This document shows positions 2,237-33,392 of a stretch of 34,684 nt of DNA, in pieces (within the stretch, counting starts at the first letter, position 1; each line of letters starts with the position of its first letter). Both the position numbers and the translations under genes were made by a program. The DNA is from Anaerolineae bacterium (lineage in GTDB: Bacteria; Chloroflexota; Anaerolineae; B4-G1; SLSP01), in contig JALOOJ010000016.1 of assembly GCA_025454475.1 (NCBI GenBank), forward strand, positions 1 to 34,684. The letters run 5' to 3'. The notes under the pieces are model-generated. The model was given only the letters and a program-made list of their open reading frames with translations, made no database searches and was not told the origin of the DNA.

Positions 2237-3640
2237 GTGTTTGAGGTGACGAAAGAACTTCTTGATTCCCACGAAGCGCTCCTCGAGATCGTCTTTGAGG
2301 AGTCCACGGTCGACGAAGCCAAGCGTCGCGCTGCTCTGAAGATCTCTCGCGAGGTCAACATCCCCGGATTCCGCAAGGGCAAAGCTCCCTATGCCAAGGT
2401 TCTGCAGTACGTTGGCGAGCCGACCGTGATCCAGGAAGCTGCTGAGCTGTTGATGGACGAGGCTTACCCCCAGATTCTCGAGAAGGGTGAGGTCTCTCCT
2501 TATGGCCCTGGGGAATACGTGAGTATGCAGCCTTCGCCCCTCACGCTGAAGATCCGCGTGCCCCTGCAGCCCACGGTTGAGCTGGGAGACTATCATAGCC
2601 TCAGAGAGCCCTGGGTTGATCCGTCGGTTTCTGGCGAAGAGGTCACGCAGACCCTTGAACAGATGCGCGAGGAACATGCGATCTTGGAGCACGTGGACCG
2701 CCCGGCGGCCATGGGCGACGAGGTTGTGGTGGATGTGAAAGCGGTCGCCAACGGCGATGTGATCGTAGAAGAAAACGAGATAGAGATTGTACTCTCGGAG
2801 AGCCGCCCGTTCCTGTCGCATGAATTCGTGGCGGCGCTGGTTGGGATGAGCGTTGACGAGACCAAGCAAGTTACCCTCGTTTTGCCGGAGACGGTCGAAG
2901 AGCCGTCGCTGCGCGGCGTGGAGGCCGATTTCACACTGACGGTCAAGCACGTTCACGAGCGCGCTCTGCCGAACGTCGATGACGCCCTGGCGAGCACGGT
3001 GGGGTCGTTCGAGACCGTTGCGGAGCTTGAGCAAGACATCCGCCAGCGCATCATCAGGCGAAAGCAGGATCAGACCTTGGCTGAGTATCGCGCGAAGTTG
3101 TCCGCGCAGCTTGTGGAGCAGGCGACGGTGGCCTATCCACCCTTGCTGCTGAAAGAGACGCTGGACGATATTGTTGACGAGGCCTCCAAGAGCATTGAGA
3201 GCCAGCGCAAGATGTCCCTGGAGGACGGCTTGCGGCTCGATGGTCTGACCCTGGAGCAGTTTCGAGAGCAGATGAGACCACAGGCCGAGGCCAGGATCAG
3301 ACGCAGTCTGGCCCTGAGCAAGTTGGCTGAGCTCGAGAATGTGACGGTCAGCGATGAGGAAGTTGTCCAGGAGTACACAGGGCTCATGGGCCGGCTTGGC
3401 GTAGTTGAGGAGCTGTCTAGCCGCAAAATCGAGGTGGATTCCCCGCTCGGTCGGAACCTGCGCTCCAGCGCGCTCGGCCGGAAGGTATTGGATCGCCTGG
3501 CCAGCATTGGGCGCGGAGAGGGCCAGGTCCCCGGGTACGGGGCCGAGGTCCCCAAAGCAAATGGGGTAGATGTAGCTGAGCACGAGGTGGATGCGTCTGC
3601 GGGCGAGGTAGAGACACCGAAGAGCGAGGCGGACGCCTAG
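2237..3640 (+). CDS. tig: Trigger factor
   Basis: Ribosome-associated chaperone and peptidyl-prolyl isomerase that meets nascent chains at the exit tunnel. The protein has 467 residues. The ribosome-docking signature GFRKGKAP is at 44-51. A FKBP-like domain starts near residue 155 (MGDEVVVDVKA), followed by the helical C-terminal chaperone domain. The tail is acidic and low in complexity, making it slightly longer than the E. coli protein (432 residues). GTG 2237 is chosen as start because GGAGGT sits just upstream and the protein then begins MFEVTKELLD. GTG 2219 is also in frame but lies almost on the predicted transcript start and would include the ribosome binding site. It is followed by clpP, a common gene order. 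Confidence 0.95.
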   Translation: MFEVTKELLDSHEALLEIVFEESTVDEAKRRAALKISREVNIPGFRKGKAPYAKVLQYVGEPTVIQEAAELLMDEAYPQILEKGEVSPYGPGEYVSMQPSPLTLKIRVPLQPTVELGDYHSLREPWVDPSVSGEEVTQTLEQMREEHAILEHVDRPAAMGDEVVVDVKAVANGDVIVEENEIEIVLSESRPFLSHEFVAALVGMSVDETKQVTLVLPETVEEPSLRGVEADFTLTVKHVHERALPNVDDALASTVGSFETVAELEQDIRQRIIRRKQDQTLAEYRAKLSAQLVEQATVAYPPLLLKETLDDIVDEASKSIESQRKMSLEDGLRLDGLTLEQFREQMRPQAEARIRRSLALSKLAELENVTVSDEEVVQEYTGLMGRLGVVEELSSRKIEVDSPLGRNLRSSALGRKVLDRLASIGRGEGQVPGYGAEVPKANGVDVAEHEVDASAGEVETPKSEADA

Positions 3641-4478: not shown

Positions 4479-6596
4479 GTGGATCTAGAAGTCTTGAATG
4501 GCCTTTTGCGCCCGAAATCCATCGCTGTTATTGGGGCCTCGGATACTCCTGGCAAGATCGGGTATACGGTAGTCCGCAGCTTGCTCGAGAGCAAGTATGA
4601 GGGTGCGATCTATCCGATCAACCCGAAGGCGGGTGAGATTCAGGGACTCAAAGCCTACACATCCGTGCTGGAAGTCCCCGGCGAAATCGACGCCGCCGCG
4701 GTTGTCGTGCCGGCCAAGCTCGTGCCGCAGGTCGCCACCGAGTGCGGCCAGAAGGGCGTCAAGGGCCTGATTATCATTGCGTCCGGGTTCAGCGAGGTTG
4801 GCCTTGCGGATTTGGAAGAGCAGGTGGTCGCGATCTCACACTCGTATGGTATGCGCGTGCTGGGCCCCAACATTGTGGGCATTCTGTCCAACTCCGATAA
4901 GTGCAACGCCTCCTTTGCGCCTTTCCTACCACTGCCAGGCAGCGCGGCCCTGGTTTCACAGAGTGGTGCGCTGCTAATTGCGATGGACGCCTCGACATAT
5001 ATCCGCCGCGTCGGCTTCGACAAGATGATCTCCATCGGGAATATGTCCGATGTGGATTTCGCCGACCTCATTGAATGGCTGGACCAGGATGCGGCCACCG
5101 AGTGTATCTCGCTATATATTGAGGGCATCCGGGACGGACGTCGCTTTATGCAGAACGCGCAGAAGGCCAGCAAGCCTATCGTAGCGTTGAAGGCGGGTGT
5201 CTCCACCCACGGCGCTGCCGCTGCTGCGTCGCATACCGGGTCACTGGCCGGCGCGCACAAGGTCTATGATGCGGCCTTTGGCCAGGCAGGCTTGGTGATG
5301 GCATCCGATCTGAACAACCTCTTCGATCGCACATTGGCCCTGTCGTTGCAGCCGCCTATGATGGGCGACAACCTGCTCATTCTCACGAACGGTGGCGGCG
5401 TGGGCGTGCTGGCGACGGATTCCGCGGAGCGGTATGGGTTGCCACTGCGATTTGCTCCGGCGGAAGTGCAGGTGGAGTTGAAGAAGCACATGCCCGATTT
5501 CGGGTCAGCCAAGAACCCTGTGGACCTGACGGGTATGGCCGGGCGCGAGTGGTACCAGGATTCCGCCCAGTATGCCTATGCCCATAGCTGGGTTGATGGG
5601 TTGGTCATTCTGTACTGCGAGACGGCTATGACCGACCCGCAGGACATCGCTGAGGGCATCAAGGCCGCAGTCGACGCGTCAGGCGTCACCGGGAAGCCGA
5701 TTGTGGTCTCTTTTGTTGGCGGCGAGCGCTCCGAGGCTGCCATGCGATGGCTCGTCGAGAATGGCATCCCGGCGTACAGCGAGCCCGACACTGCGGTGAA
5801 CGTGATGGCGGCGCTGCGTGAGTACGCTCGAAACAAGGCGAAGGCTGCCAACGGATTTGTGCGGCTCACAGACGTGGACGAGGCGAAGGCCCGTGCGATC
5901 ATCGCTCAGGTTCGTGCTGAGGGGGATCGTAACGTCACCGAGATCGAGTCCAAGATGATTTTCGAGGCATACGGCCTGCCGGTGGTCCTATCAAGACAGG
6001 CTACGACCGAAGATGAAGCAGCAACGCTTGCTAACGCTATGGGCTACCCCATCGTGATGAAGGTCCTGTCCCCAGACATTTTGCACAAGTCGGATGCCGG
6101 CGGAGTGAAGGTGGGCCTCGAGACCGAGGAAGAGATCCGAACAGCATTCCGCGCAATCATGGAAGGTGCCAAGGCGTACGATGCGAATGCTCGGATCCAC
6201 GGCGTGGTCGTGCAGAAGATGGCCCCTTGGGGAACCGAGGTGATTCTGGGGTCGGTGAACGATGCAACGTTTGGGCCGACGCTGATGTTTGGGCTGGGGG
6301 GTATCTTCGTGGAGGTGCTCAAGGATGTGACCTTCCGTGTGGCACCGGTCGGGGCAGAGGAAACCTTGACGATGTTATCCGATATCAACGGCGCGCCGAT
6401 TCTTAAGGGTGTGCGCGGCGAAGGTCCCCGCGATCGTAGGGCTCTTGCGGATGTGCTGAGCCGCTATTCGCAGATGATCTGCGATCTGGCTGACGAGATC
6501 CAGGAATCTGATGCCAACCCGATGATTGTCTACGAGGAAGGCGCCGGGGCGAGCATCGTTGACGCCCGCATCATCCTCAAGGCCAAGAAGAGCTAG
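4479..6596 (+). CDS. Acetate/acyl-CoA synthetase, ADP-forming, fused alpha-beta
   Basis: A 705-residue NDP-forming acyl-CoA synthetase. It converts acyl-CoA, ADP and phosphate to acid, CoA and ATP (reversible), giving substrate-level phosphorylation. Domain order: CoA-binding Rossmann domain (KSIAVIGASDTPGKIG, residues 13-28), succinyl-CoA-ligase-like domains with GPNIVG and SQSGAL, the phospho-histidine motif ASHTGSLAG (His252), then a C-terminal ATP-grasp beta part from about 485 (PIVMKVLSPDILHKSDAGG; FGLGGIFVEVLKDV). All expected parts are present, so it should be active. GTG 4479 follows GAGGAGG. Monocistronic: a terminator lies on either side. Substrate range (acetyl-, isobutyryl-, phenylacetyl-CoA) cannot be read from sequence. 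It would pair functionally with the 2-oxoacid:ferredoxin oxidoreductase at 27660-30363. Confidence 0.92.
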   Translation: MDLEVLNGLLRPKSIAVIGASDTPGKIGYTVVRSLLESKYEGAIYPINPKAGEIQGLKAYTSVLEVPGEIDAAAVVVPAKLVPQVATECGQKGVKGLIIIASGFSEVGLADLEEQVVAISHSYGMRVLGPNIVGILSNSDKCNASFAPFLPLPGSAALVSQSGALLIAMDASTYIRRVGFDKMISIGNMSDVDFADLIEWLDQDAATECISLYIEGIRDGRRFMQNAQKASKPIVALKAGVSTHGAAAAASHTGSLAGAHKVYDAAFGQAGLVMASDLNNLFDRTLALSLQPPMMGDNLLILTNGGGVGVLATDSAERYGLPLRFAPAEVQVELKKHMPDFGSAKNPVDLTGMAGREWYQDSAQYAYAHSWVDGLVILYCETAMTDPQDIAEGIKAAVDASGVTGKPIVVSFVGGERSEAAMRWLVENGIPAYSEPDTAVNVMAALREYARNKAKAANGFVRLTDVDEAKARAIIAQVRAEGDRNVTEIESKMIFEAYGLPVVLSRQATTEDEAATLANAMGYPIVMKVLSPDILHKSDAGGVKVGLETEEEIRTAFRAIMEGAKAYDANARIHGVVVQKMAPWGTEVILGSVNDATFGPTLMFGLGGIFVEVLKDVTFRVAPVGAEETLTMLSDINGAPILKGVRGEGPRDRRALADVLSRYSQMICDLADEIQESDANPMIVYEEGAGASIVDARIILKAKKS

Positions 6597-6702: not shown

Positions 6703-6737
6703 GACCGAAGCAACAGGACCTGTCGAGGGAGGTGTCA

Positions 6738-8360
6738 GTGGGACCCTGTGACAACGCATTGCCCTTGTGCGTGCGCGAGTTGACCTTCCGTTATCGCATT
6801 CGCGAACAGCCCGCGCTTCGGAACCTCTCCCTTGACCTGCACCAGGGTGAGCTGATGCTGGTCGCAGGCACGAGCGGCTGCGGCAAGACGACGCTGATGC
6901 GGTGCATCAATGGCCTCATTCCCCGAAGTTATCGCGGCGAGCAGTCCGGCAGCATCCGGATATTCGGCGAAGACGTTCGCGGGATGAGCATGGCATGGCT
7001 CTCGCAGAAGGTCGGGACGCTGCTCCAGGATCCCGAGCGTCAGATCGTGGGCAGTTATGTCCTGAACGAGGTGGCGTTTGGCCTCGAGAACCTGGCAGTC
7101 CCGCGCCACGAGATTCTGGCGCGTGTTGACGAAACGCTCGATTTCCTGGGCATCCTGAAGCTGCGCGACCGTGAGACTTTCAGCCTCTCCGGAGGGGAGA
7201 AGCAGAAGGTAGCGCTGGCCGGAGCGCTGGCCATGCGACCGCAGATCCTGCTGCTTGATGAGCCGCTGGCAAGCCTGGATAGCGCCTCGGCCCAGGATGC
7301 GCTCGCTCTCTTTCGTCGGCTTGCGGATAGCGGCGTCGCGATCATGCTGGTCGAGCATCGGGTCGAGGATGTGTTGCGCATCGGTCCCGACACTGTACTC
7401 TACCTGCGCGACGGGGAGCCGGCTTACTTCGGCGATGCCGAGGGAATGATGCAGGCGCTGGACTACCACGAGGTGAAGCTGCCCGCGCCTGTGGTCTTCG
7501 AGCGGGCGAAGGCTCAGCCCGCGCCGCGCTTCGAGGCAGCCGTGAAGCCAGATGGCCAGGAGACGTTGGTCTCGTTTGATCATGTGATCTTCAGGTACGA
7601 CCCGGCGCTTCCCGATGTGCTTCGCGACGTCAACTTCACAATACGCAAGGGCGATGTCGTGGCGATGTTAGGGGCCAACGGTGCGGGCAAGACGACGCTG
7701 GTCAAGCACGCTCTGGGCCTGCTCAAGCCGACTGAGGGCCGAGTCCTGTTGGAGGGCCGCGATACGCGCGAGCTCTCCGTGGCGCAGGCGGCCCGCACCG
7801 TGGGATACGTGTTTCAGAGCCCTTCGCAGATGCTCTTTGCTCCGACCGTCAGTGAGGAGCTGGCCTTTGGCCCTCGCAACCTTGGCCATGATAGAGAACA
7901 GGTACGGCGTGATGTTGTTTGGGCGTTGGACGTAGTCAACATGCGTGACTACGCGGATTCCCCGCCGCTGGCACTCTCGTTCGGCCAGCAGAAGCGGATC
8001 AGTATCGCCGCTGTGCTGGCCATGCGCTCGCGCATCCTGATGATGGATGAACCGACGGCAGGTCAGGACTACTGGAATTACACTGCCTTCATGGACGCGA
8101 TCTTGCAGATGCCCGGATTCGATGCCGTGATTTTCATCACCCACGATCTGGACTTGGCCATCAGCTATGCCAATCGGATCGTGCTGGTGAGCGATGGACA
8201 GATCGCCGCCGATGGATCCCCTGCGGAGGTCTTCGTGGACGAGACCCTGCTCTTGCGTTGCCGGGTCGTGCCGACGTCGCTACTCAAGCTGAACACCGAG
8301 AAGCTTCCGGTGACGGGGACCTTCATGCGCGCTGAGCTGTTGGCCCACGCCGTCGCCTGA
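6738..8360 (+). CDS. ECF transporter ATPase, two ABC domains fused
   Basis: A 540-residue protein carrying both ATP-binding halves of an energy-coupling-factor vitamin or metal importer (EcfA and EcfA' in one chain). Domain 1 (about 8-240): Walker A GTSGCGKT at 44-51, signature LSGGEKQ near 150, Walker B ILLLDEP near 170-176. Domain 2 (about 275-510): Walker A GANGAGKT at 312-319, signature LSFGQQK at 413-419, Walker B ILMMDEP near 433-439. The second signature has Phe where LSGGQ has Gly. GTG 6738 is chosen because GGGAGG lies 5 bases upstream; GTG 6732 overlaps that site. It is followed by S and T components, so the locus encodes a complete transporter. Confidence 0.9.
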   Translation: MGPCDNALPLCVRELTFRYRIREQPALRNLSLDLHQGELMLVAGTSGCGKTTLMRCINGLIPRSYRGEQSGSIRIFGEDVRGMSMAWLSQKVGTLLQDPERQIVGSYVLNEVAFGLENLAVPRHEILARVDETLDFLGILKLRDRETFSLSGGEKQKVALAGALAMRPQILLLDEPLASLDSASAQDALALFRRLADSGVAIMLVEHRVEDVLRIGPDTVLYLRDGEPAYFGDAEGMMQALDYHEVKLPAPVVFERAKAQPAPRFEAAVKPDGQETLVSFDHVIFRYDPALPDVLRDVNFTIRKGDVVAMLGANGAGKTTLVKHALGLLKPTEGRVLLEGRDTRELSVAQAARTVGYVFQSPSQMLFAPTVSEELAFGPRNLGHDREQVRRDVVWALDVVNMRDYADSPPLALSFGQQKRISIAAVLAMRSRILMMDEPTAGQDYWNYTAFMDAILQMPGFDAVIFITHDLDLAISYANRIVLVSDGQIAADGSPAEVFVDETLLLRCRVVPTSLLKLNTEKLPVTGTFMRAELLAHAVA

Positions 8361-8479
8361 CGCCCACGGAATGAGCAGTGTGGAAGGAGGTGGACTTGGG
8401 GAGTGATATGCTGGCCATTTGCAGAGACGGTGGTCCAAACATACGTTCGTCCTGACTGCTATCAATCGGGAGGGTTCTT

Positions 8480-9028
8480 ATGGATAAGAAGTCGTTGTGG
8501 AAGTTTGGCACGCGGGAGGTTGTCTACGCGGCGATCGGCGCGGCACTCTACGGTGTGTTTTCATTTCTCACGAACTGGATCGGGCTGCCCGCTGCCGGCA
8601 ACATCGCACTGCGCCCGGCCGTCGCAATCCCGATGTTCTTCGGTGTCGCGTTCGGCCCGATCGTGGGCTTCATCACGGGCTTTCTGGGCAACGTGTTGGG
8701 AGATTTTCTGTCAGGGTATGGCTTCTGGTGGTCGTGGGACCTGGGTAACGGCCTGATGGGCCTCATTCCTGGGTTGATGGCTGTGGGTATCGCCTCCTAC
8801 AAAGCGAAGGCCACGATCATCAAAGCCGAGATCCTCGTTGTGATCGGCGCCGCCATCGGCATGCTCGTACCATCGCTGTTGGAGATCCCTTTGAGTGGCA
8901 TCGACCTGCGCACAGCTATTGTAGGTTACTGGCTCCCATCGTTTCTGAGTAACACCATCAATGGGTTGATCCTTGTGCCCATCCTGATGGTTGCGTATGA
9001 CGCCGTTGTGTCGAGATCCGGGCGGTAG
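8480..9028 (+). CDS. ECF transporter substrate-binding (S) component, UPF0397-like
   Basis: A 182-residue very hydrophobic membrane protein with about five to six transmembrane segments. Motifs resemble the UPF0397 / ECF riboflavin-type S-component family: RPAVAIPMFFGVAFGPIVGF, GFLGNVLGD, and WWSWDLGNGLMGLIPGL. S components capture the vitamin and dock on the EcfT/EcfA module. Riboflavin is a frequent annotation for this family, but the ligand is not certain here. ATG 8480 has GGGAGG upstream. The 119 bases before it hold no recognised riboswitch. A strong hairpin lies between this gene and the T component. Confidence 0.8.
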   Translation: MDKKSLWKFGTREVVYAAIGAALYGVFSFLTNWIGLPAAGNIALRPAVAIPMFFGVAFGPIVGFITGFLGNVLGDFLSGYGFWWSWDLGNGLMGLIPGLMAVGIASYKAKATIIKAEILVVIGAAIGMLVPSLLEIPLSGIDLRTAIVGYWLPSFLSNTINGLILVPILMVAYDAVVSRSGR

Positions 9029-9039
9029 CGTGATCGTGG

Positions 9040-9075
9040 CAGGCCGGCCCCGTCGTGAGTGGAAGGGCCGGCCTG
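9040..9075 (+). repeat. GC-rich hairpin between S and T component genes
   Basis: CAGGCCGGCCC (9040-9050) pairs perfectly with GGGCCGGCCTG (9065-9075); the loop is 14 bases. No T-run follows and the ribosome binding site of the T component starts about 5 bases later. It probably acts on mRNA stability or on the ratio of the two proteins rather than as a terminator. Confidence 0.6.
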
Positions 9076-9091
9076 ACCGGGGGGAGAGACT

Positions 9092-9967
9092 ATGCTGGTC
9101 ACCTGGAGATATCGGCCTCGTGGCAGTGTCATAGAGAAGGTAGATCCTCGAGCTCGATGGATCTACTCTTTTATGGTTCTTCTGTCACTGACCCAGTTCT
9201 GGGACATTCGCTTCCTGCTGTGTTTCCTGGGCGTTGTGCTGGTTCAGTACGCGCTCGCGCGGGTTACCTGGGCCGAGACGCGTCGGGGCTGGACGTTCAT
9301 CCTGATCTTTGCCGTGGGGATTGTTGCGCTAAACACGCTGTTCACTGGGCGGGGCGGACCGGGTGAGGTCCTGCAGGGCGGGCACGTACTGTGGCGCACG
9401 GACTGGCGCGTCCTTGGGTTAGCTATACATCCTACGATTACGGTGGAGCGCGTTTGGTTTGCAGTATCTCAGATCGTGCGAATGGTGTCGATCTCCGGCC
9501 TATTTCTCATTATCCCTTATACCATGAACCCCCGGCACTATGGTGTGACGTTCCGGTCGATGGGTGTCCCGGATCGTTTCGCGTTTTCGATGGACCTGGC
9601 ATTCCGATTCGTGCCGACATTGGCGCGCGACTTCAATACGACACTGGATGCACAGAAGGCCCGTGGTTACGAGGTGGAAAAGCTCGAGGGCGGTCTCATC
9701 GCACAGATCCGCAAGATGGCGCCGCTGGTTGTCCCTGTGACGATGAACGCGATTCTTAGCGGCGAGGAGATCACGAACGCAATGGACCTGCGCTGTTTCG
9801 GGACGCGTCTGAGGACCTGGGTTCACGAGTTGCATTACCGGCGCATGGACTACGTCCTGATGGGAGCAAGCGTCGTTGTGCTTGTGGCATCGCTGGTGGT
9901 GCGTTATGGTCTGAAGATCGGCACGTTCTGGGTGCCCGGTTGGGCGCTGGCCTGGGCCGGTGGCTGA
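9092..9967 (+). CDS. ECF transporter transmembrane (T) component
   Basis: A 291-residue integral membrane protein that couples ATP hydrolysis to toppling of the S component. The N-terminal DPRARWI and the coupling-helix motif AQKARGYE (ARG at residues 190-192) are typical of EcfT. The second coupling motif, normally also Ala-Arg-Gly, reads MDLRCFGTR (LRC at 233-235), so it is altered. ATG 9092 follows GGGGGGAGAG. Order ATPase, S, T on one strand implies one transport unit dedicated to the neighbouring S component, although a shared module cannot be excluded. Confidence 0.87.
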   Translation: MLVTWRYRPRGSVIEKVDPRARWIYSFMVLLSLTQFWDIRFLLCFLGVVLVQYALARVTWAETRRGWTFILIFAVGIVALNTLFTGRGGPGEVLQGGHVLWRTDWRVLGLAIHPTITVERVWFAVSQIVRMVSISGLFLIIPYTMNPRHYGVTFRSMGVPDRFAFSMDLAFRFVPTLARDFNTTLDAQKARGYEVEKLEGGLIAQIRKMAPLVVPVTMNAILSGEEITNAMDLRCFGTRLRTWVHELHYRRMDYVLMGASVVVLVASLVVRYGLKIGTFWVPGWALAWAGG

Positions 9968-13524: not shown

Positions 13525-14091
13525 ATGATTGAAGGGCTTCTGGATCTGGCATCGGCTTTTGGGCTATCTACTTCGTCGGGCCTGAATGCCTACATACCGA
13601 TGCTGATCATGGCATTACTGGCCAAGTTCACTGGGCTGATCGAACTCGGCGAGCCGTGGAATGCGCTGACGAGCTGGTGGATTATCGGGCTCTTGGCAGT
13701 GTTGCTGGTCGTCGAGGAAATAGCCGACAAAATCCCCGCGGTGGACTCCATCAATGACGTGGTGCAGACGCTTGTCCGACCAACGGCCGGCGCGATTGTG
13801 TTCGCGGCGACGACGCAGTCCTCTATCAGTCTGCACCCTGTGCTGGCATTCGGCTGCGGGATCATCTTGGCCGGAACGGTTCACGTGGTCAAGGCAGGGT
13901 CGCGGCCTGCAGTTACGGCGCTTTCTGCGGGCGTGGCCAATCCCGTGGTGAGCACCCTTGAGGACATCGTTGCGACGGTGACATCGTTCGTGGCGATCAT
14001 CTTCCCCTACCTCATCGTCATCTGGCTCATCCTGCTGATCGCTGCTATCTTCCTGGTCTTGCGCTGGCGCCGCCAGCATATAAGGCGATAA
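13525..14091 (+). CDS. DUF4126 family membrane protein
   Basis: A 188-residue membrane protein with about five hydrophobic segments. It matches the DUF4126 pattern: an N-terminal GLSTSSGLNAYIPML, then EEIADKIPAVDSINDVVQTLVRPTAGA, and SRPAVTALSAGVANPVVSTLEDIVA. The basic tail (RWRRQHIRR) should face the cytoplasm. Function is unknown. ATG 13525 is chosen because AAGGAG lies 6-12 bases upstream and the protein then begins MIEGLLDLASAFGL, typical of the family. The frame open from 13432 precedes the promoter and is rejected. It leads into two small membrane-protein genes on the same strand. Confidence 0.85.
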   Translation: MIEGLLDLASAFGLSTSSGLNAYIPMLIMALLAKFTGLIELGEPWNALTSWWIIGLLAVLLVVEEIADKIPAVDSINDVVQTLVRPTAGAIVFAATTQSSISLHPVLAFGCGIILAGTVHVVKAGSRPAVTALSAGVANPVVSTLEDIVATVTSFVAIIFPYLIVIWLILLIAAIFLVLRWRRQHIRR

Positions 14092-14188: not shown

Positions 14189-14404
14189 ATGACACAAGAT
14201 CCATTCTACGATTCGCAGTCTGCGGCCTATGCGGAGGTTCAGCCCGCCAAGAAGAGCCGTACCGGTCTCATCATCCTCATCGTTGTTGCGGTGTTGTTGT
14301 TGTGCTGCTGCGCGGTCATCGCCGCGGGGTGGTTCTTCGGCGATCCTGTTCTGGAAATGCTGCGGGAGATGGGGATCGATATCTTCCTGCCTGTGCTCTT
14401 CTAG
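14189..14404 (+). CDS. Small single-pass membrane protein with a Cys cluster
   Basis: A 71-residue hypothetical protein with a polar N-terminus of about 26 residues (rich in D, Q, S, Y), a KKSR stop-transfer-like motif, one transmembrane helix containing LLLCCCAV, and a short hydrophobic C-terminal tail ending FLPVLF. ATG 14189 is chosen because GCGGGGGT precedes it; the longer frame from 14120 has no good site. It resembles the C-terminal part of the next gene: both read K-S-x-T-G-x-I, then the helix, then a triple or quadruple Cys, then a tail ending in a hydrophobic PVLF or PLL. Probably an ancient duplication. No known domain. Confidence 0.6.
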   Translation: MTQDPFYDSQSAAYAEVQPAKKSRTGLIILIVVAVLLLCCCAVIAAGWFFGDPVLEMLREMGIDIFLPVLF

Positions 14405-14524
14405 TTGCGGTCTTAGGATGTCTGGCTGAGTATTGGGTGGGGCTCAGCATCGATGGCGAGGTAGGCGCAGGCGCGCAGGCCTTGTTTCAGTACGTGGGTG
14501 CACCTCTGGGAAAGGTAGGGCAAG

Positions 14525-15169
14525 ATGACCGGAAACTCGATCTACGCGACGCGACGCTTGGATCCTGACGACGAAGATTCGGGGATATCTGAGGAGGAGG
14601 TTGCAGAAGGGCAGACGCTTATTGCGCCTCCACCCCTGCCGGAGTCTGAAGCGGTGGTAACGCGACCACCTTTGCCGGATATGGGTGCAGAAGCGCCGCC
14701 ACCGCTACCTGAGCCGGAGGTCCTTCTGTCACTACCGGACGTGGACGTTGAGGCGCCGCCCCTACCCGAGGCGGAAGGAGTCCATATCACATCCCCGGCC
14801 ATGCCCGAGATCGTTGCCGAGCCGCAGGTGCTCACGTTTGCTGGGACGTCGGAGCCGGAGGCCGGGGGACCGTCTGAAATCCCCAGCCCCTTCGAGGAGG
14901 CTGAGGTCTTGATTGAGCCTGCGGAGAATGCGGTGGTCGCGCCGCCGTCACCGGTGGAGGTAAGCAGTGGCGGGGGGACGCAAGTGGTGCTTCCTTCGGA
15001 TAGAGGATCGACGAAGTCTAGTACGGGGATGATCGTGCTAATCGTCGTCGTGGTCCTGTTGCTGCTGTGCTGCTGCTGTTTTGTGGCAGGGGCCCTCGTG
15101 TTGATGGTCGTTCCTGAGAGTTCTTGGGACACGATGTACCTATTGCGAGGTGTCTTGCCCCTCCTGTGA
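14525..15169 (+). CDS. Pro/Glu-rich single-pass membrane protein with a Cys cluster
   Basis: A 214-residue hypothetical protein. Residues about 30-160 are a low-complexity acidic, proline-rich region with repeated PPLPE-like units (PPPLPESE, RPPLPD, PPPLPEPE, APPLPEAE). Then comes KSSTGMIVLIV, one transmembrane helix with LLLLCCCCFVAG, and a hydrophobic tail ending VLPLL. The membrane and tail part looks paralogous to the 71-residue protein at 14189-14404. With the positive residues before the helix, the long acidic region would lie in the cytoplasm by the positive-inside rule (inference). ATG 14525 has AAAGGTAGGG upstream. A terminator follows. Confidence 0.65.
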   Translation: MTGNSIYATRRLDPDDEDSGISEEEVAEGQTLIAPPPLPESEAVVTRPPLPDMGAEAPPPLPEPEVLLSLPDVDVEAPPLPEAEGVHITSPAMPEIVAEPQVLTFAGTSEPEAGGPSEIPSPFEEAEVLIEPAENAVVAPPSPVEVSSGGGTQVVLPSDRGSTKSSTGMIVLIVVVVLLLLCCCCFVAGALVLMVVPESSWDTMYLLRGVLPLL

Positions 15170-15194: not shown

Positions 15195-15228
15195 CAAACG
15201 CCTCAGGGGCCTCCCTGGGGCGTTTGCT
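15195..15228 (+). terminator. Terminator hairpin abutting the uvrC promoter
   Basis: CAAACGCCTCAGGG (15195-15208) pairs with CCCTGGGGCGTTTG (15213-15226), 14 pairs including one T-G, with a 4-base loop. The tail is short. Its 3' arm ends only 4 bases before the uvrC -10. Confidence 0.7.
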
Positions 15229-15229
15229 G

Positions 15230-15235
15230 TATAAT
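15230..15235 (+). promoter_or_regulatory. -10 element for uvrC (leaderless)
   Basis: A perfect TATAAT lies 8-13 bases before the uvrC GTG. Transcription would start at or within a base or two of 15243, so the mRNA should have no 5' leader. No convincing -35 is visible; that region is inside the terminator hairpin. Confidence 0.65.
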
Positions 15236-15242
15236 CTGGGCC

Positions 15243-17144
15243 GTGATACAGACAACAGAGGCTGTACAGCAGAAGCTTGACGCGCTGCCACGAAAGCCCG
15301 GCGTCTATCTGATGCACAACCTGAAGGGCCGGGTGGTCTACGTTGGCAAGGCCATCGATCTGGCGAGCCGCGTGCGCTCCTACTTCCACGCCTCGGCGCA
15401 GGAGAATGCCAAAACGCGCCGACTGGTCGCTGAGATCACCGATCTGGAATGGATTCTCACGGACTCGGAGGTGGAGGCGCTTATCCTTGAGGCCAACCTC
15501 ATCAAGAAGCATCGTCCGCGCTACAATATTCGGCTCAAGGACGACAAACGCTACCCCTATCTGAAGGTTACCCACGAGGACTTCCCCAAGGTCCTGATCA
15601 CGCGGCGGATGCAGCGCGACGGCGGGCGTTACTTCGGTCCGTACACCTCCTCCAACGCTCTGCGCGAGACGCTGGACTTGATCCGGCGCCTGTTTCCCTA
15701 TCGCACGTGCGACCGTGAGATCACGGGACAAGACCGCCGGGCGTGTCTGTACTACGACCTCAGGCTATGCACTGCGCCCTGCATCGGCGCGGTGGATCGC
15801 GCGCAGTACAACGCCGTGATCGAGCAGTTGATCCACTTTATGGGTGGCGAGACGGAAGAGGTGATGGGCGACATGCGGCAGCAGATCGACGCGGCTGCGA
15901 CAGGCTTGCAGTTTGAGCGAGCGGCGCAGTTGCGGGATCGCTACAAGGCGCTGCAGCAGGTGATGGAGCACCAGCGCATCATCACCACCGCGGCGACAAA
16001 TCAGGATGTCGTGGCGATGGCGCGTGACAACGGCAATGCCTGTGTCGAGGTCTTCTTCGTCCGCAATGGCAAGCTGTTGGGGCGTGAGTACTTCGTGATG
16101 GAGGGGGCCGGCAACGATGACGATGAGGCGGTTGTCACGGCTTTCCTGCAGCAGTTTTATACCGAGGCCGCCTCGGTGCCGCCGGAGATCCTACTGCCGG
16201 CCCAGATCGCCGAGGCTGCGGTGCTGGAGCAGTGGCTCAGGGTAAAGCGCGGCGACGTCGTCTACATCAACGTGCCGCGCGAGGGGCCGGGCCGCGAACT
16301 GCTTGATCTTGCATCAACCAACGCGACCGAGACGCTGCGCTTGCTCAAGGCGCAGTGGGAGATGGATCAACACCGCAGTGAGTTGGCCTTGAGCGAGTTG
16401 CAGCAGGGGCTTGACCTCCCGCGACCGCCGGTGCGGATGGAATGCTACGACATCTCCACCACGCAGGGGGTGGAGGTGGTCGGCAGCATGGTGGTCTTCG
16501 AACACGGCGTGCCGAGGAAGGCGCACTACCGGCGCTTCAAGATCCGGACGGTGGTGGGGCAGGACGACTTCGCGAGCATGCGCGAGGTTCTCACACGCCG
16601 GTTTGACCGCTGGCGGCGGGTCAACAGCGGCGAGCAGCGTGGGGCGCGGGGCAACCAGGCTTGGGCGATGTTGCCCGACTTGCTGATCGTGGACGGCGGC
16701 AAAGGGCAGTTGGGGATGGCGGTGGAGGTCCTCGAGACGTTCGGCCTCACCGATCAGGTCCCTGTGGTCGGCCTGGCAAAGCGGTATGAGGAGATCTTCA
16801 TCCCGGCGCGCCGGGTGCCGGTGCGCTTCGACGCCGCCGCTCCGGCGATCCTGCTGTTGCAGCGCATCCGCGACGAGGCGCATCGTTTCGCGATCACCTA
16901 TCACCGCCAGCGACGACAGCAGGTGGGCCTCGCCTCGCAGATCGACGAGATCCCGGGTATCGGTCCGGTGAAGCGCCGAGCGCTGCTCAAGCACCTTGGG
17001 TCACTGGACGCCATCCAGAAGGCCGACGCCCAGAGCCTGCGGGCGGTGCCGGGGATCTCGAAGGTGCTAGCGACGACGATCGTGGAGCATTTCGAGCGAC
17101 TGAGGCGGGAGCAGGAGCTCGAGGCTCAGGAGTCCGGGGGATAG
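15243..17144 (+). CDS. uvrC: UvrABC excinuclease subunit C
   Basis: A 633-residue nuclease that makes both incisions in nucleotide excision repair. Layout: N-terminal GIY-YIG domain (PGVYLM near 19-24, VVYVGKA near 31-37), a Cys-bearing loop (CLYYDLRLCTAPC), UVR helix pair near 205-240 (LQFERAAQLRDRYKAL) that binds UvrB, RNase H-like second nuclease domain (MECYDIST; LLIVDGGKGQLG), and C-terminal helix-hairpin-helix pair (IPGIGPVKRRALLKHLG; VPGISKVLATTIVEHF). Length is normal. GTG 15243 is the only sensible start: the family begins about 10-15 residues before PGVYLM. No ribosome binding site can exist because the -10 is directly upstream, so this is read from a leaderless transcript. Confidence 0.97.
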   Translation: MIQTTEAVQQKLDALPRKPGVYLMHNLKGRVVYVGKAIDLASRVRSYFHASAQENAKTRRLVAEITDLEWILTDSEVEALILEANLIKKHRPRYNIRLKDDKRYPYLKVTHEDFPKVLITRRMQRDGGRYFGPYTSSNALRETLDLIRRLFPYRTCDREITGQDRRACLYYDLRLCTAPCIGAVDRAQYNAVIEQLIHFMGGETEEVMGDMRQQIDAAATGLQFERAAQLRDRYKALQQVMEHQRIITTAATNQDVVAMARDNGNACVEVFFVRNGKLLGREYFVMEGAGNDDDEAVVTAFLQQFYTEAASVPPEILLPAQIAEAAVLEQWLRVKRGDVVYINVPREGPGRELLDLASTNATETLRLLKAQWEMDQHRSELALSELQQGLDLPRPPVRMECYDISTTQGVEVVGSMVVFEHGVPRKAHYRRFKIRTVVGQDDFASMREVLTRRFDRWRRVNSGEQRGARGNQAWAMLPDLLIVDGGKGQLGMAVEVLETFGLTDQVPVVGLAKRYEEIFIPARRVPVRFDAAAPAILLLQRIRDEAHRFAITYHRQRRQQVGLASQIDEIPGIGPVKRRALLKHLGSLDAIQKADAQSLRAVPGISKVLATTIVEHFERLRREQELEAQESGG

Positions 17145-30390: not shown

Positions 30391-31110
30391 TCAGCTTTCC
30401 GAGTCGAGGTCGACGTCAGCAGCCCCTCTGGCACTGATGACTGCGGTGACCTGCCCCTCGCCCCACGTCTCCACCTGACCCAGTGGCCCGAGGGCCAGCG
30501 CGACTCCATCGGGAATTCCCAGTCCGAGCAGGTTCTCATCGATATGGGGTAGGGCACGCAGGATGGGGGAGTTCTCGGTCCCAGCGAAATGAGGGGCGAT
30601 CACGGCGTTCATTGCGAAGCCCAGCCCCAAAGCCTGGTGATAGGGCGGTTGTGGAGTGAAGATCCATCGTCCTAACGCCGCTGCACCGGCGACTGAGCCG
30701 ATCAAGGTAAGCCCCTGAAGCGTGCTAAAGCCCTCCACAATCGTGATGAGCGCCTCGGTGTTGACCAGGTTGTTAACCAGGGGTAACGGGTTCGCGCCGC
30801 CGAGATAGAGAATGCCCGCCTCCTGGAGCAACAGCCTGAACTCCTCTGCCTGGAGCTGGTCGCGGGTCATCGTTGCCAGACTGAAGGCCTCACCACCGGG
30901 GCCCCCGAGCGATGTGTAGTGCTCAAGGATGCGGTCGGCGCCGGCGGCACTGCCCTCCGCAGTCAGAACGATCATAGGGCGGTCGAGGTTCGCCACACTG
31001 AGGGCTAGCGCATCGACCTGGTCCGTCTCGCCACGGTGCCAGTCCCCCCCTCCAAGGAGAACGAGCCACCCCTCGCCATCGAGCCAGCGCAATGGGCCTT
31101 GTTGTGGCAT
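30391..31110 (-). CDS. S51/cyanophycinase-like protein with altered nucleophile motif
   Basis: A 239-residue protein with the fold pattern of the S51 (cyanophycinase/dipeptidase E, class I amidotransferase-like) group: GGGDW (20-24), GADRILEHYTSLG, ILYLGGANPLPLVNNL, and a C-terminal GIPDGVALALGPLGQVETWG. The family nucleophile lies in a Gly-x-Ser-Ala-Gly-Ala motif. Here it reads GSVAGAAALG (138-147) with Val140 at the expected Ser position. A serine sits one residue earlier. Activity is therefore doubtful, or the protein has another role. ATG 31110 is 7 bases after the M20 stop, implying one transcript. Confidence 0.65.
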   Translation of the reverse strand: MPQQGPLRWLDGEGWLVLLGGGDWHRGETDQVDALALSVANLDRPMIVLTAEGSAAGADRILEHYTSLGGPGGEAFSLATMTRDQLQAEEFRLLLQEAGILYLGGANPLPLVNNLVNTEALITIVEGFSTLQGLTLIGSVAGAAALGRWIFTPQPPYHQALGLGFAMNAVIAPHFAGTENSPILRALPHIDENLLGLGIPDGVALALGPLGQVETWGEGQVTAVISARGAADVDLDSES

Positions 31111-32474: not shown

Positions 32475-33392
32475 CTATGCCGCGGTACCTCGCGGCAGCG
32501 ATGCGGCACTGCCTTGGCTCTTGCTATTCCATGCAAGGTAAGCGTAGAGTGTTCCCCACTTGCTGGGTTGTCCGACTCTCTCTCGCGCCAAATATGACTT
32601 GTTTGCGGGTAGGGTTCCTTCGAGGCGAATCCTGCCGTGCTCGTCCTTTTTCTCCTCCAGGAGCATCCACGCCTCGCGGAGGTCCGGTGACTGCCCGACC
32701 CCCATCGCTGCCAGGGAATCGAGCAGCAAAGGTAGTCCAACGCGGAAGTACTCGGAGGGGAAGAAGTTGTCAACCATCCTCTTGCCGGGATGGTCGGGCA
32801 ATACCAACTTGGCCGGGTCATCCGTTCTGTAGAACAGCCGCCGCCTCAGAAAGTAGTCGACCAACTGCCGGCTTCCTTCGAGACACAGGCCCTGTTTCCT
32901 AAGCTCCCCAGCCAGCAGCAGCCCATGCATAGCGGCCCTTATGCAGCTCTTTGGCTCTCTGTTCATCTTCTCGACACGGTGGACGCAGAGCCATGCGCCA
33001 TCCGTGCGCTGAGCATCTCTCAGATGCTCAAGACGTCTCTCAACGCGTGGGTCACGCCCATATCCAAGCATTACCATCGCACGTAGCGCCATCAGATCGC
33101 CGCAGTTCGCGTCGAATGGCTGCGACAGGAGTATGCTTGCGACAGCCTCTATGGAAACGTCCTCATAGGACAGCCCTGATTCGGCCAGCGCTGTCAAGTT
33201 GTATACAAGCACCTGGCCCTTTCGGTCCATCCACGATAGGTCACGCGCGGCAGGGAGTGAATCCAGCACAAGGCAACGTGCCTGTCTGACCGTCTCGTGG
33301 TCTCTCTGCAACTGGACCAAGCTGGTCAGGGTGCGCATGCGTACGCCAGGGTTGTCTTCCTGCAGTAGCCAACTGAGGATGTGCTCGTTCAT
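32475..33392 (-). CDS. Alpha/alpha-toroid-like (terpenoid-cyclase fold) hypothetical protein
   Basis: A 305-residue mostly helical protein. Sequence pattern suggests repeated helix pairs of the prenyltransferase/squalene-cyclase toroid: DNPGVRMRTLTSLVQL, then YGRDPRVERRLEHLRDAQRTDGAW, then IRAAMHGLLLAGELR, FFPSEYFRVGLPLLLDSLAAMG, and EEKKDEHGRIRLEGT followed by PSKWGTLYAYLAW. Such proteins are widespread and mostly unassigned; I see no cyclase DXDD motif. ATG 33392 gives MNEHILSWLLQEDNPGVR; a CCAGG upstream is a weak ribosome binding site. It lies 47 bases downstream of the M32 gene and could be co-transcribed with it. Confidence 0.65.
   Translation of the reverse strand: MNEHILSWLLQEDNPGVRMRTLTSLVQLQRDHETVRQARCLVLDSLPAARDLSWMDRKGQVLVYNLTALAESGLSYEDVSIEAVASILLSQPFDANCGDLMALRAMVMLGYGRDPRVERRLEHLRDAQRTDGAWLCVHRVEKMNREPKSCIRAAMHGLLLAGELRKQGLCLEGSRQLVDYFLRRRLFYRTDDPAKLVLPDHPGKRMVDNFFPSEYFRVGLPLLLDSLAAMGVGQSPDLREAWMLLEEKKDEHGRIRLEGTLPANKSYLARERVGQPSKWGTLYAYLAWNSKSQGSAASLPRGTAA

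Follow-up and report, generated by a model that had tools for sequence, protein, structure and literature searches.

Between a DUF4126 gene and uvrC, the 34,684-nucleotide stretch of Anaerolineae DNA analysed here (the window) encodes two small proteins, each with three or four consecutive cysteines inside a hydrophobic helix. The locus raises the question of whether these proteins represent a family, which genes that family keeps as neighbours, and what such a run of cysteines may do within a membrane.

Two adjacent proteins share a cysteine-cluster module

The features concerned, in window coordinates, are:

13525..14091, + strand: DUF4126 gene (PF13548), a multi-helix membrane protein, upstream of the module gene
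14189..14404, + strand: first Cys-cluster protein, an open reading frame of 71 aa, with a short tail carrying a DPFYD motif
14249..14344, + strand: module of the 71-aa protein, comprising KKSRTG, a hydrophobic helix, CCC (14303-14311), then G-D
14525..15169, + strand: second Cys-cluster protein, an open reading frame of 214 aa
14525..15007, + strand: Pro/Glu-rich tail of the 214-aa protein, with four PPLP motifs and SPFEE
15014..15130, + strand: module of the 214-aa protein, comprising KSSTG, a hydrophobic helix, CCCC (15068-15079) and acidic residues past the helix

A sequence-only reading of this DNA had described two adjacent frames sharing K-S-x-T-G and a helix with CCC or CCCC, and both were recovered at these positions with the pattern literal: KSRTG-LIILIVVAVLLL-CCC in the 71-aa protein and KSSTG-MIVLIVVVVLLLL-CCCC in the 214-aa protein. 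In both, K-S-x-T-G is followed by approximately 13 hydrophobic residues and the Cys run. About ten residues, most of them hydrophobic, come after the run, then an acidic one, and the protein closes with a short hydrophobic segment. When the genome of origin was searched with the 71-aa protein, the sole real match was the 214-aa neighbour (E 1.5e-5), the remaining four matches all having E values of 0.199 or worse. Judged from its sequences, the tandem pair belongs to a single family of predicted single-pass membrane proteins. An AlphaFold2 model of the 71-aa protein, of modest quality (mean pLDDT 67), has coil over residues 1-23 and a helix over residues 24-61; no strand is present in residues 1-23, where pLDDT is only about 53 over residues 1-20. 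The long paralogue begins with a TRRL(D/E) motif region that is conserved across the genus (positions 14525-14570 of the window; L036, L054 and L056).

Elsewhere, the window holds ECF transporter genes (6732-9967), with an ABC protein and a membrane component assigned by sequence and an S component of the riboflavin type (PF07155), a Peptidase S51 family protein (30391-31110) adjoining 2-oxoacid:ferredoxin oxidoreductase genes, and a 305-aa protein (32475-33392) with no Pfam match at E <= 0.01. A scan of the window against Rfam gave no match.

Distribution of the family

The 71-aa protein has a relative in genome G004 with 53% identity over residues 1-70 (E 4.7e-21), and matches 28 of 59 relatives besides its own genome at E <= 1e-4; the looser tally of 53 out of 60 relatives at E <= 1 contains chance hits. 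A profile (A1) was made from 36 aligned modules, L052, L064 and L067 being left out of the 39 module rows listed; it also lacks L045, L049 and L051, module loci of the window's family that were missed by the filters. Applied at E <= 1e-4 to 301 genomes forming an even sample of the phylum, A1 matched 24 of the 39 genomes of the window's class, its own genome counted, and six of the 262 genomes of other classes. Homologues therefore exist well beyond the genome of origin, and a spread in Chloroflexota, together with the rarity expected in the sequence-only reading, is supported.

The best match contains at least three consecutive Cys in 21 of the 24 matching class genomes, while in the remaining three it reads CCVC (G283), CCAC (G127) and CAC (G159). 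Outside the class, a Cys run is found in two of the six matching genomes only (G061 and G070); the four other matches belong to family f40 and have a Lys-rich helix with a single Cys. At the f40 loci (L214-L217) this helix stands behind a Pro/Tyr-rich tail, and these proteins are possible kin without the Cys run. At E <= 1e-3, A1 had no match in 18 named genomes that carry no Chloroflexota label (two of them called only 'bacterium'), and a match in one of six labelled Dehalococcoidia, Dehalococcoides or Chloroflexia.

The module is taken in by no Pfam or NCBIfam family, and its profile found nothing meaningful among solved structures (best E 0.36). In the open-access literature searched, no paper was found on Chloroflexi poly-cysteine proteins or Anaerolineae CCCC proteins. 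The family is conserved and as yet has no name; its members are membrane proteins of one helix, with three or four consecutive intramembrane Cys.

DUF4126 is the conserved neighbour

The DUF4126 gene of the window clearly passes the PF13548 cut-off (173.7 bits against 27.5, E 3.8e-51). All 301 genomes were searched for both genes, and adjacency was defined as a module lying about 600 bases or less downstream of DUF4126 on the same strand. Of the 24 class genomes matched by A1, 21 have DUF4126 directly upstream of the module; outside the class this arrangement occurs in G061 only, giving 22 of 30 genomes overall. The three class genomes without it are G151, in which both genes lie at contig starts, G159, in which they are apart, and G024, which has no DUF4126 match. 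The statement in the sequence-only reading that the pair has no known partner was thus mistaken. DUF4126, a family of unknown function, is the conserved neighbour of the module and not the module itself.

Gene order was also compared across 41 stretches, namely the window and 40 around matches of P0001, of which 11 are weaker than E 1e-4. DUF4126 is upstream of the module in 20 of these. Family f16 retains DUF4126 in 16 stretches in which uvrC and the four other tested neighbours from the window give no match.

The association does not hold in the opposite direction. Of the 34 class genomes that have DUF4126, 13 lack an adjacent module match, although in G339 a Cys-rich helix of looser form occupies that position and G151 is cut by contig ends, and the module was downstream in none of 20 further DUF4126 loci of other classes. 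This implies that DUF4126 is not dependent on the module. The two genes also need not be co-transcribed, because a TATAAT sequence is present in nine of 13 DUF4126-module gaps in f16; the corresponding gap of the window is without one. In several loci (L043, positions 3173-3493; L048, L057, L060 and L070), and not in the window, a DUF4190-like gene (PF13828, tested on L043 only) lies between DUF4126 and the module.

Other information on DUF4126 is sparse. An AlphaFold2 model from eight sequences was poor (mean pLDDT 56, pTM 0.38), the profile matched none of the solved structures, and a search of open-access full text by the name of the family returned no paper on the topic, just an unrelated title.

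Conservation of the cysteine run

Runs of four Cys codons are not in themselves unusual at the DNA level. The word TGY repeated four times occurs at 29 sites in the 4.8 Mb genome of origin, against 25 for the reversed control word, and is hence hardly enriched; of these sites, only that of the 214-aa protein lies inside a long hydrophobic stretch of an open frame. A 53-aa frame (L260) is hydrophobic up to its Cys run and ends straight after it. In 69 module-like helices, picked by requiring CC and so unable to show Cys invariance, the Cys codons comprise 161 TGC and 88 TGT in 24 different patterns, with all-TGC runs in 17 helices. Since the codons are mixed, it is the amino acid, rather than a DNA repeat, that appears to be kept. 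The run has four Cys in 46 of these CC-selected modules, three in 13, two in eight and five in two.

Two Cys columns are invariant among the 36 aligned members, the rows having been chosen with CCC, while helix positions near these columns vary among I, V, L and A. A survey anchored on DUF4126 examined the downstream side of 58 distinct loci, a set enriched for module loci and including two that were too short. A helix with at least three consecutive Cys was found downstream in 38, and two more have CC (CCVC and CCAC). Two others have scattered Cys-rich helices (CLCVMIVC; LCAC..GGCC), scored by the script as none, and the helix found in L227, which bears Lys but no Cys, was taken as unrelated. 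The remaining 13 have no such protein downstream. This implies that the helix beside DUF4126 stays Cys-rich, while the strict run can loosen. Conservation of the cysteines among homologues, on which the earlier proposal depended, is therefore found in this form, with a run of at least three in 21 of 24 class genomes. The run appears to lie near the middle of the membrane part, where it would place a cysteine on nearly every helix face near the middle of the bilayer.

Topology, fusions and tails

The module is joined to several kinds of N-terminal region, as the sequence-only reading had suggested it might be: the short tail, the long Pro/Glu tail and a zinc ribbon. In one protein (L213, in G070; 4870-6120) the CCCC helix module is preceded by a zinc ribbon and followed by a PnrA/Bmp solute-binding domain (E 2.8e-47). 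In another (L052) the module is terminal and stands behind a zinc ribbon and a Pro-rich stretch, an arrangement that also appears in the sequence of L286 (G058). In f16 (L206-L209), the CCCC helix forms the N-terminal anchor of proteins of approximately 165-210 aa that share an exported-looking domain, for which no Pfam match was found in the protein of L209. Lys and Arg average 2.3 before the helix and 0.27 after it, in a set to which, as to the tail set below, the filter admitted at least two DUF4190-type proteins. Together, the fusions and the charge distribution suggest that the N-terminus of the module would be in the cytosol and its C-terminus outside.

The tails carry recurring short motifs. 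PPLP is present in 10 of 14 long tails, in a total of 23 copies, whereas 1000 shuffles averaged 1.4 and never gave more than six. The motif [S/D/T/N]-P-[F/Y]-acidic occurs in 18 of 55 tails (mean 2.0 and maximum seven in shuffles), short tails carrying it as DPFYE and long tails as SPFDE. As all of these occurrences come from the window's family, the counts represent recurrence among relatives, not independent events.

A possible adaptor, and the alternative of a plain anchor

The reading favoured here, held tentatively and with rather less than even confidence, is that these proteins are adaptor subunits of a membrane assembly around DUF4126, with the thiols used for helix contact and the tail for recruitment. 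Module proteins would sit as single-pass adaptors beside DUF4126 and in contact with it. The Cys run might make helix-helix contacts, either by hydrogen bonding of its thiols or by forming a disulfide to another copy. The unstructured tail could recruit a cytosolic protein via its PPPLP and S/D-P-F-acidic motifs, in which case the two paralogues would offer one short and one long tether. The evidence behind this proposal is the homology of the family, its neighbourhood, the Cys-rich helix in the class, the reuse of the module and the recurring tail motifs. Against it, adjacency to DUF4126 is not equal to contact; moreover, the module, as read from the fusions, also anchors proteins without a DUF4126 link, and the four f40 matches have a single Cys.

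The last two of these points favour a serious rival, in which the module would serve this lineage as a general membrane anchor and the Cys run would simply be the clade's way of building the middle of a strongly hydrophobic helix, with no chemistry attached. The same helix holds unrelated domains, namely the zinc ribbon with the solute-binding protein and the exported-looking domains of f16, and the Lys-rich helix of the four f40 matches manages with one Cys. Such an explanation nevertheless seems doubtful, as it accounts poorly for the members located through DUF4126, which were found without asking for CCC and still keep a Cys-rich helix, and for the invariance of the two Cys columns in the CCC-chosen alignment while neighbouring positions drift. 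The adaptor proposal is favoured over both this anchor and the redox or metal role considered below.

Comparison with CYSTM and other known proteins

The closest known parallel is with the eukaryotic CYSTM stress proteins (PF12734; yeast MNC1, YDR034W-B and plant PCMs), the layout of which is described as a variable N-terminal part and a C-terminal helix with three to four consecutive Cys, followed by an acidic residue (PMC10217909). Like the module proteins, these are small and have one helix with an acidic residue behind it, and the three and four consecutive Cys of the window proteins fall within the described range. Arabidopsis CYSTM genes include tandem copies, as does the window (PMC8049917). 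Of 64 proteins, a set to which the filter again admitted at least two of DUF4190 type, 57 have an acidic residue at most 16 positions past the Cys run, in 39 cases at position 11 or 12. CYSTM proteins are also tail-anchored with a cytosolic N-terminus, and their N-terminal cytoplasmic element is predicted as a beta-strand; in the module proteins charge and fusions favour an N-terminus inside, although a hydrophobic C-terminal stretch comes after the helix, and the model of the 71-aa protein shows no N-terminal strand, in a segment of low confidence. The differences are equally clear: the window helices have three and four Cys, not five to six in all; the module helix opens with K-K/S-N-T, ordered I, V, L, C; there is a hydrophobic tail past the helix; and the module is bacterial, linked to DUF4126 and reused as an N-terminal anchor.

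No protein of 60 relatives exceeded the PF12734 cut-off. The best weak match, at 20.3 bits against 25.2, was the zinc-ribbon, Pro-rich CCCC protein of G058, and weak matches are common in relatives (34 of 60) and control genomes (six of 14) alike at E <= 10. Among the PF12734 matches listed, none was at a DUF4126-linked module, and PF12734 was absent among the 25 listed of the 29 families to which the 36 members gave weak matches. With the profile below its cut-off and fewer Cys, the module looks like CYSTM, and may work like it, without being a member.

By analogy, the module might act as a membrane thiol device in the manner of CYSTM, buffering membrane redox state or binding metal for protection against stress. 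The similarity of layout (PMC10217909), the acidic residue that follows the run and the fact that the best weak PF12734 match is itself a CCCC module protein are consistent with this. It is rather doubtful, however, given the failure of any relative to reach the cut-off, the frequency of weak matches in controls and the finding of no redox or metal gene among the few conserved neighbours tested. What the CYSTM thiols do is itself unproven (PMC10217909).

Resemblance to other families is slighter. The NCBIfam entry NF040945, 'CCC motif membrane protein', is alike by name and gave matches below its cut-off in three of the 36 members (best E 0.0011; P0001 scored 16 bits against a cut-off of 65). 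The Lys-rich segment and helix weakly match the N-terminal region of FliL (NF006283 and NF004285, in 23 and 12 of 36 members respectively), with P0001 reaching 14.3 bits of 187 and 19.5 of 179 over a short N-terminal stretch only. Identities as phage holin, EssA or FliL were rejected, all matches being below the cut-offs.

The relationship with uvrC

Downstream of the pair, the window contains:

15195..15226, + strand: terminator-like hairpin of 14 pairs between the 214-aa gene and uvrC
15230..15235, + strand: TATAAT box before uvrC, seven bases ahead of its GTG start
15243..17144, + strand: neighbouring uvrC, probably on a separate transcript

The 73-nt gap before uvrC folds at -37 kcal/mol (z -3.62), and the hairpin within it is one of three matches found by a terminator scan against 1.5 expected. 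Most gaps before uvrC in relatives hold hairpins of other sequence. TATAAT precedes uvrC in 13 of 20 gaps examined; all 13 are among the 15 gaps from the window's family, and the five gaps from other families have none. A scan for two-hexamer promoters listed no site before uvrC in the window. The recurrence of the box implies that uvrC probably has its own, near-leaderless transcript in the window's family.

The module and uvrC are nonetheless frequently adjacent, uvrC being downstream on the same strand in 27 of the 41 stretches. In a survey anchored on uvrC, 77 of 80 loci were usable (L116, L131 and L146 were dropped because the match reaches the contig start). UvrC identity was at least 72% in 12 of these, ten of which have at least 300 bases upstream, and the CCC helix is right before uvrC in all ten; the two other close loci have only 97 and 205 bases upstream. 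At UvrC identities of at most 56%, none of 65 loci has a CCC helix upstream. The helix does occur there in other members of the same order, whose UvrC is 58-61% identical and which are outside the 80-locus survey.

A uvrC operon was considered as a functional link in view of this strong synteny, and was dropped given the f16 loci without uvrC, the hairpin and the TATAAT box. A role as a partner of UvrC, tethering excision repair to the membrane, would fit the position of uvrC directly downstream in so many stretches and in all ten close loci, but is very unlikely in view of the 16 f16 stretches that have DUF4126 and no uvrC match, the hairpin and box standing between the genes, and the absence of the helix from all 65 distant uvrC loci. 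On gene order, DUF4126 is a tighter link to the module than uvrC.

Lipid modification

Lipid modification of the Cys run, whether by acylation, as raised in the sequence-only reading, or by processing of the lipoprotein kind, is unsupported and most improbable: the order of charged stretch, hydrophobic stretch and Cys bears a superficial likeness to a lipoprotein signal, but the window proteins have L-L-L-C-C-C and L-L-L-L-C-C-C-C in place of a lipobox ([LVI][ASTVI][GAS]C), the charged stretch is preceded by an N-terminal extension, and the run is of several Cys, lies near mid-helix and is followed by further hydrophobic residues. We know of no DHHC-type acyltransferase in bacteria.

Implications

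It is conceivable, though unlikely, that the class has evolved its own counterpart of CYSTM, in which the mobile thiol-run anchor would be a redox- or metal-responsive assembly switch for a DUF4126 complex and cytosolic motifs of the PPPLP and DPF types would recruit a client. The client would be recruited when the thiols change state, and on this view the f40 helices, with their single Cys, would be relatives that lack the switch. Bacterial proteins with a CYSTM-like layout, and without membership of the CYSTM profile, would represent an independent natural experiment. The variants with a loosened run, along with the possible single-Cys kin, make the role of the thiols, if any, testable in a simple host. 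The module also gives a first lead for DUF4126, which is itself unexplained.
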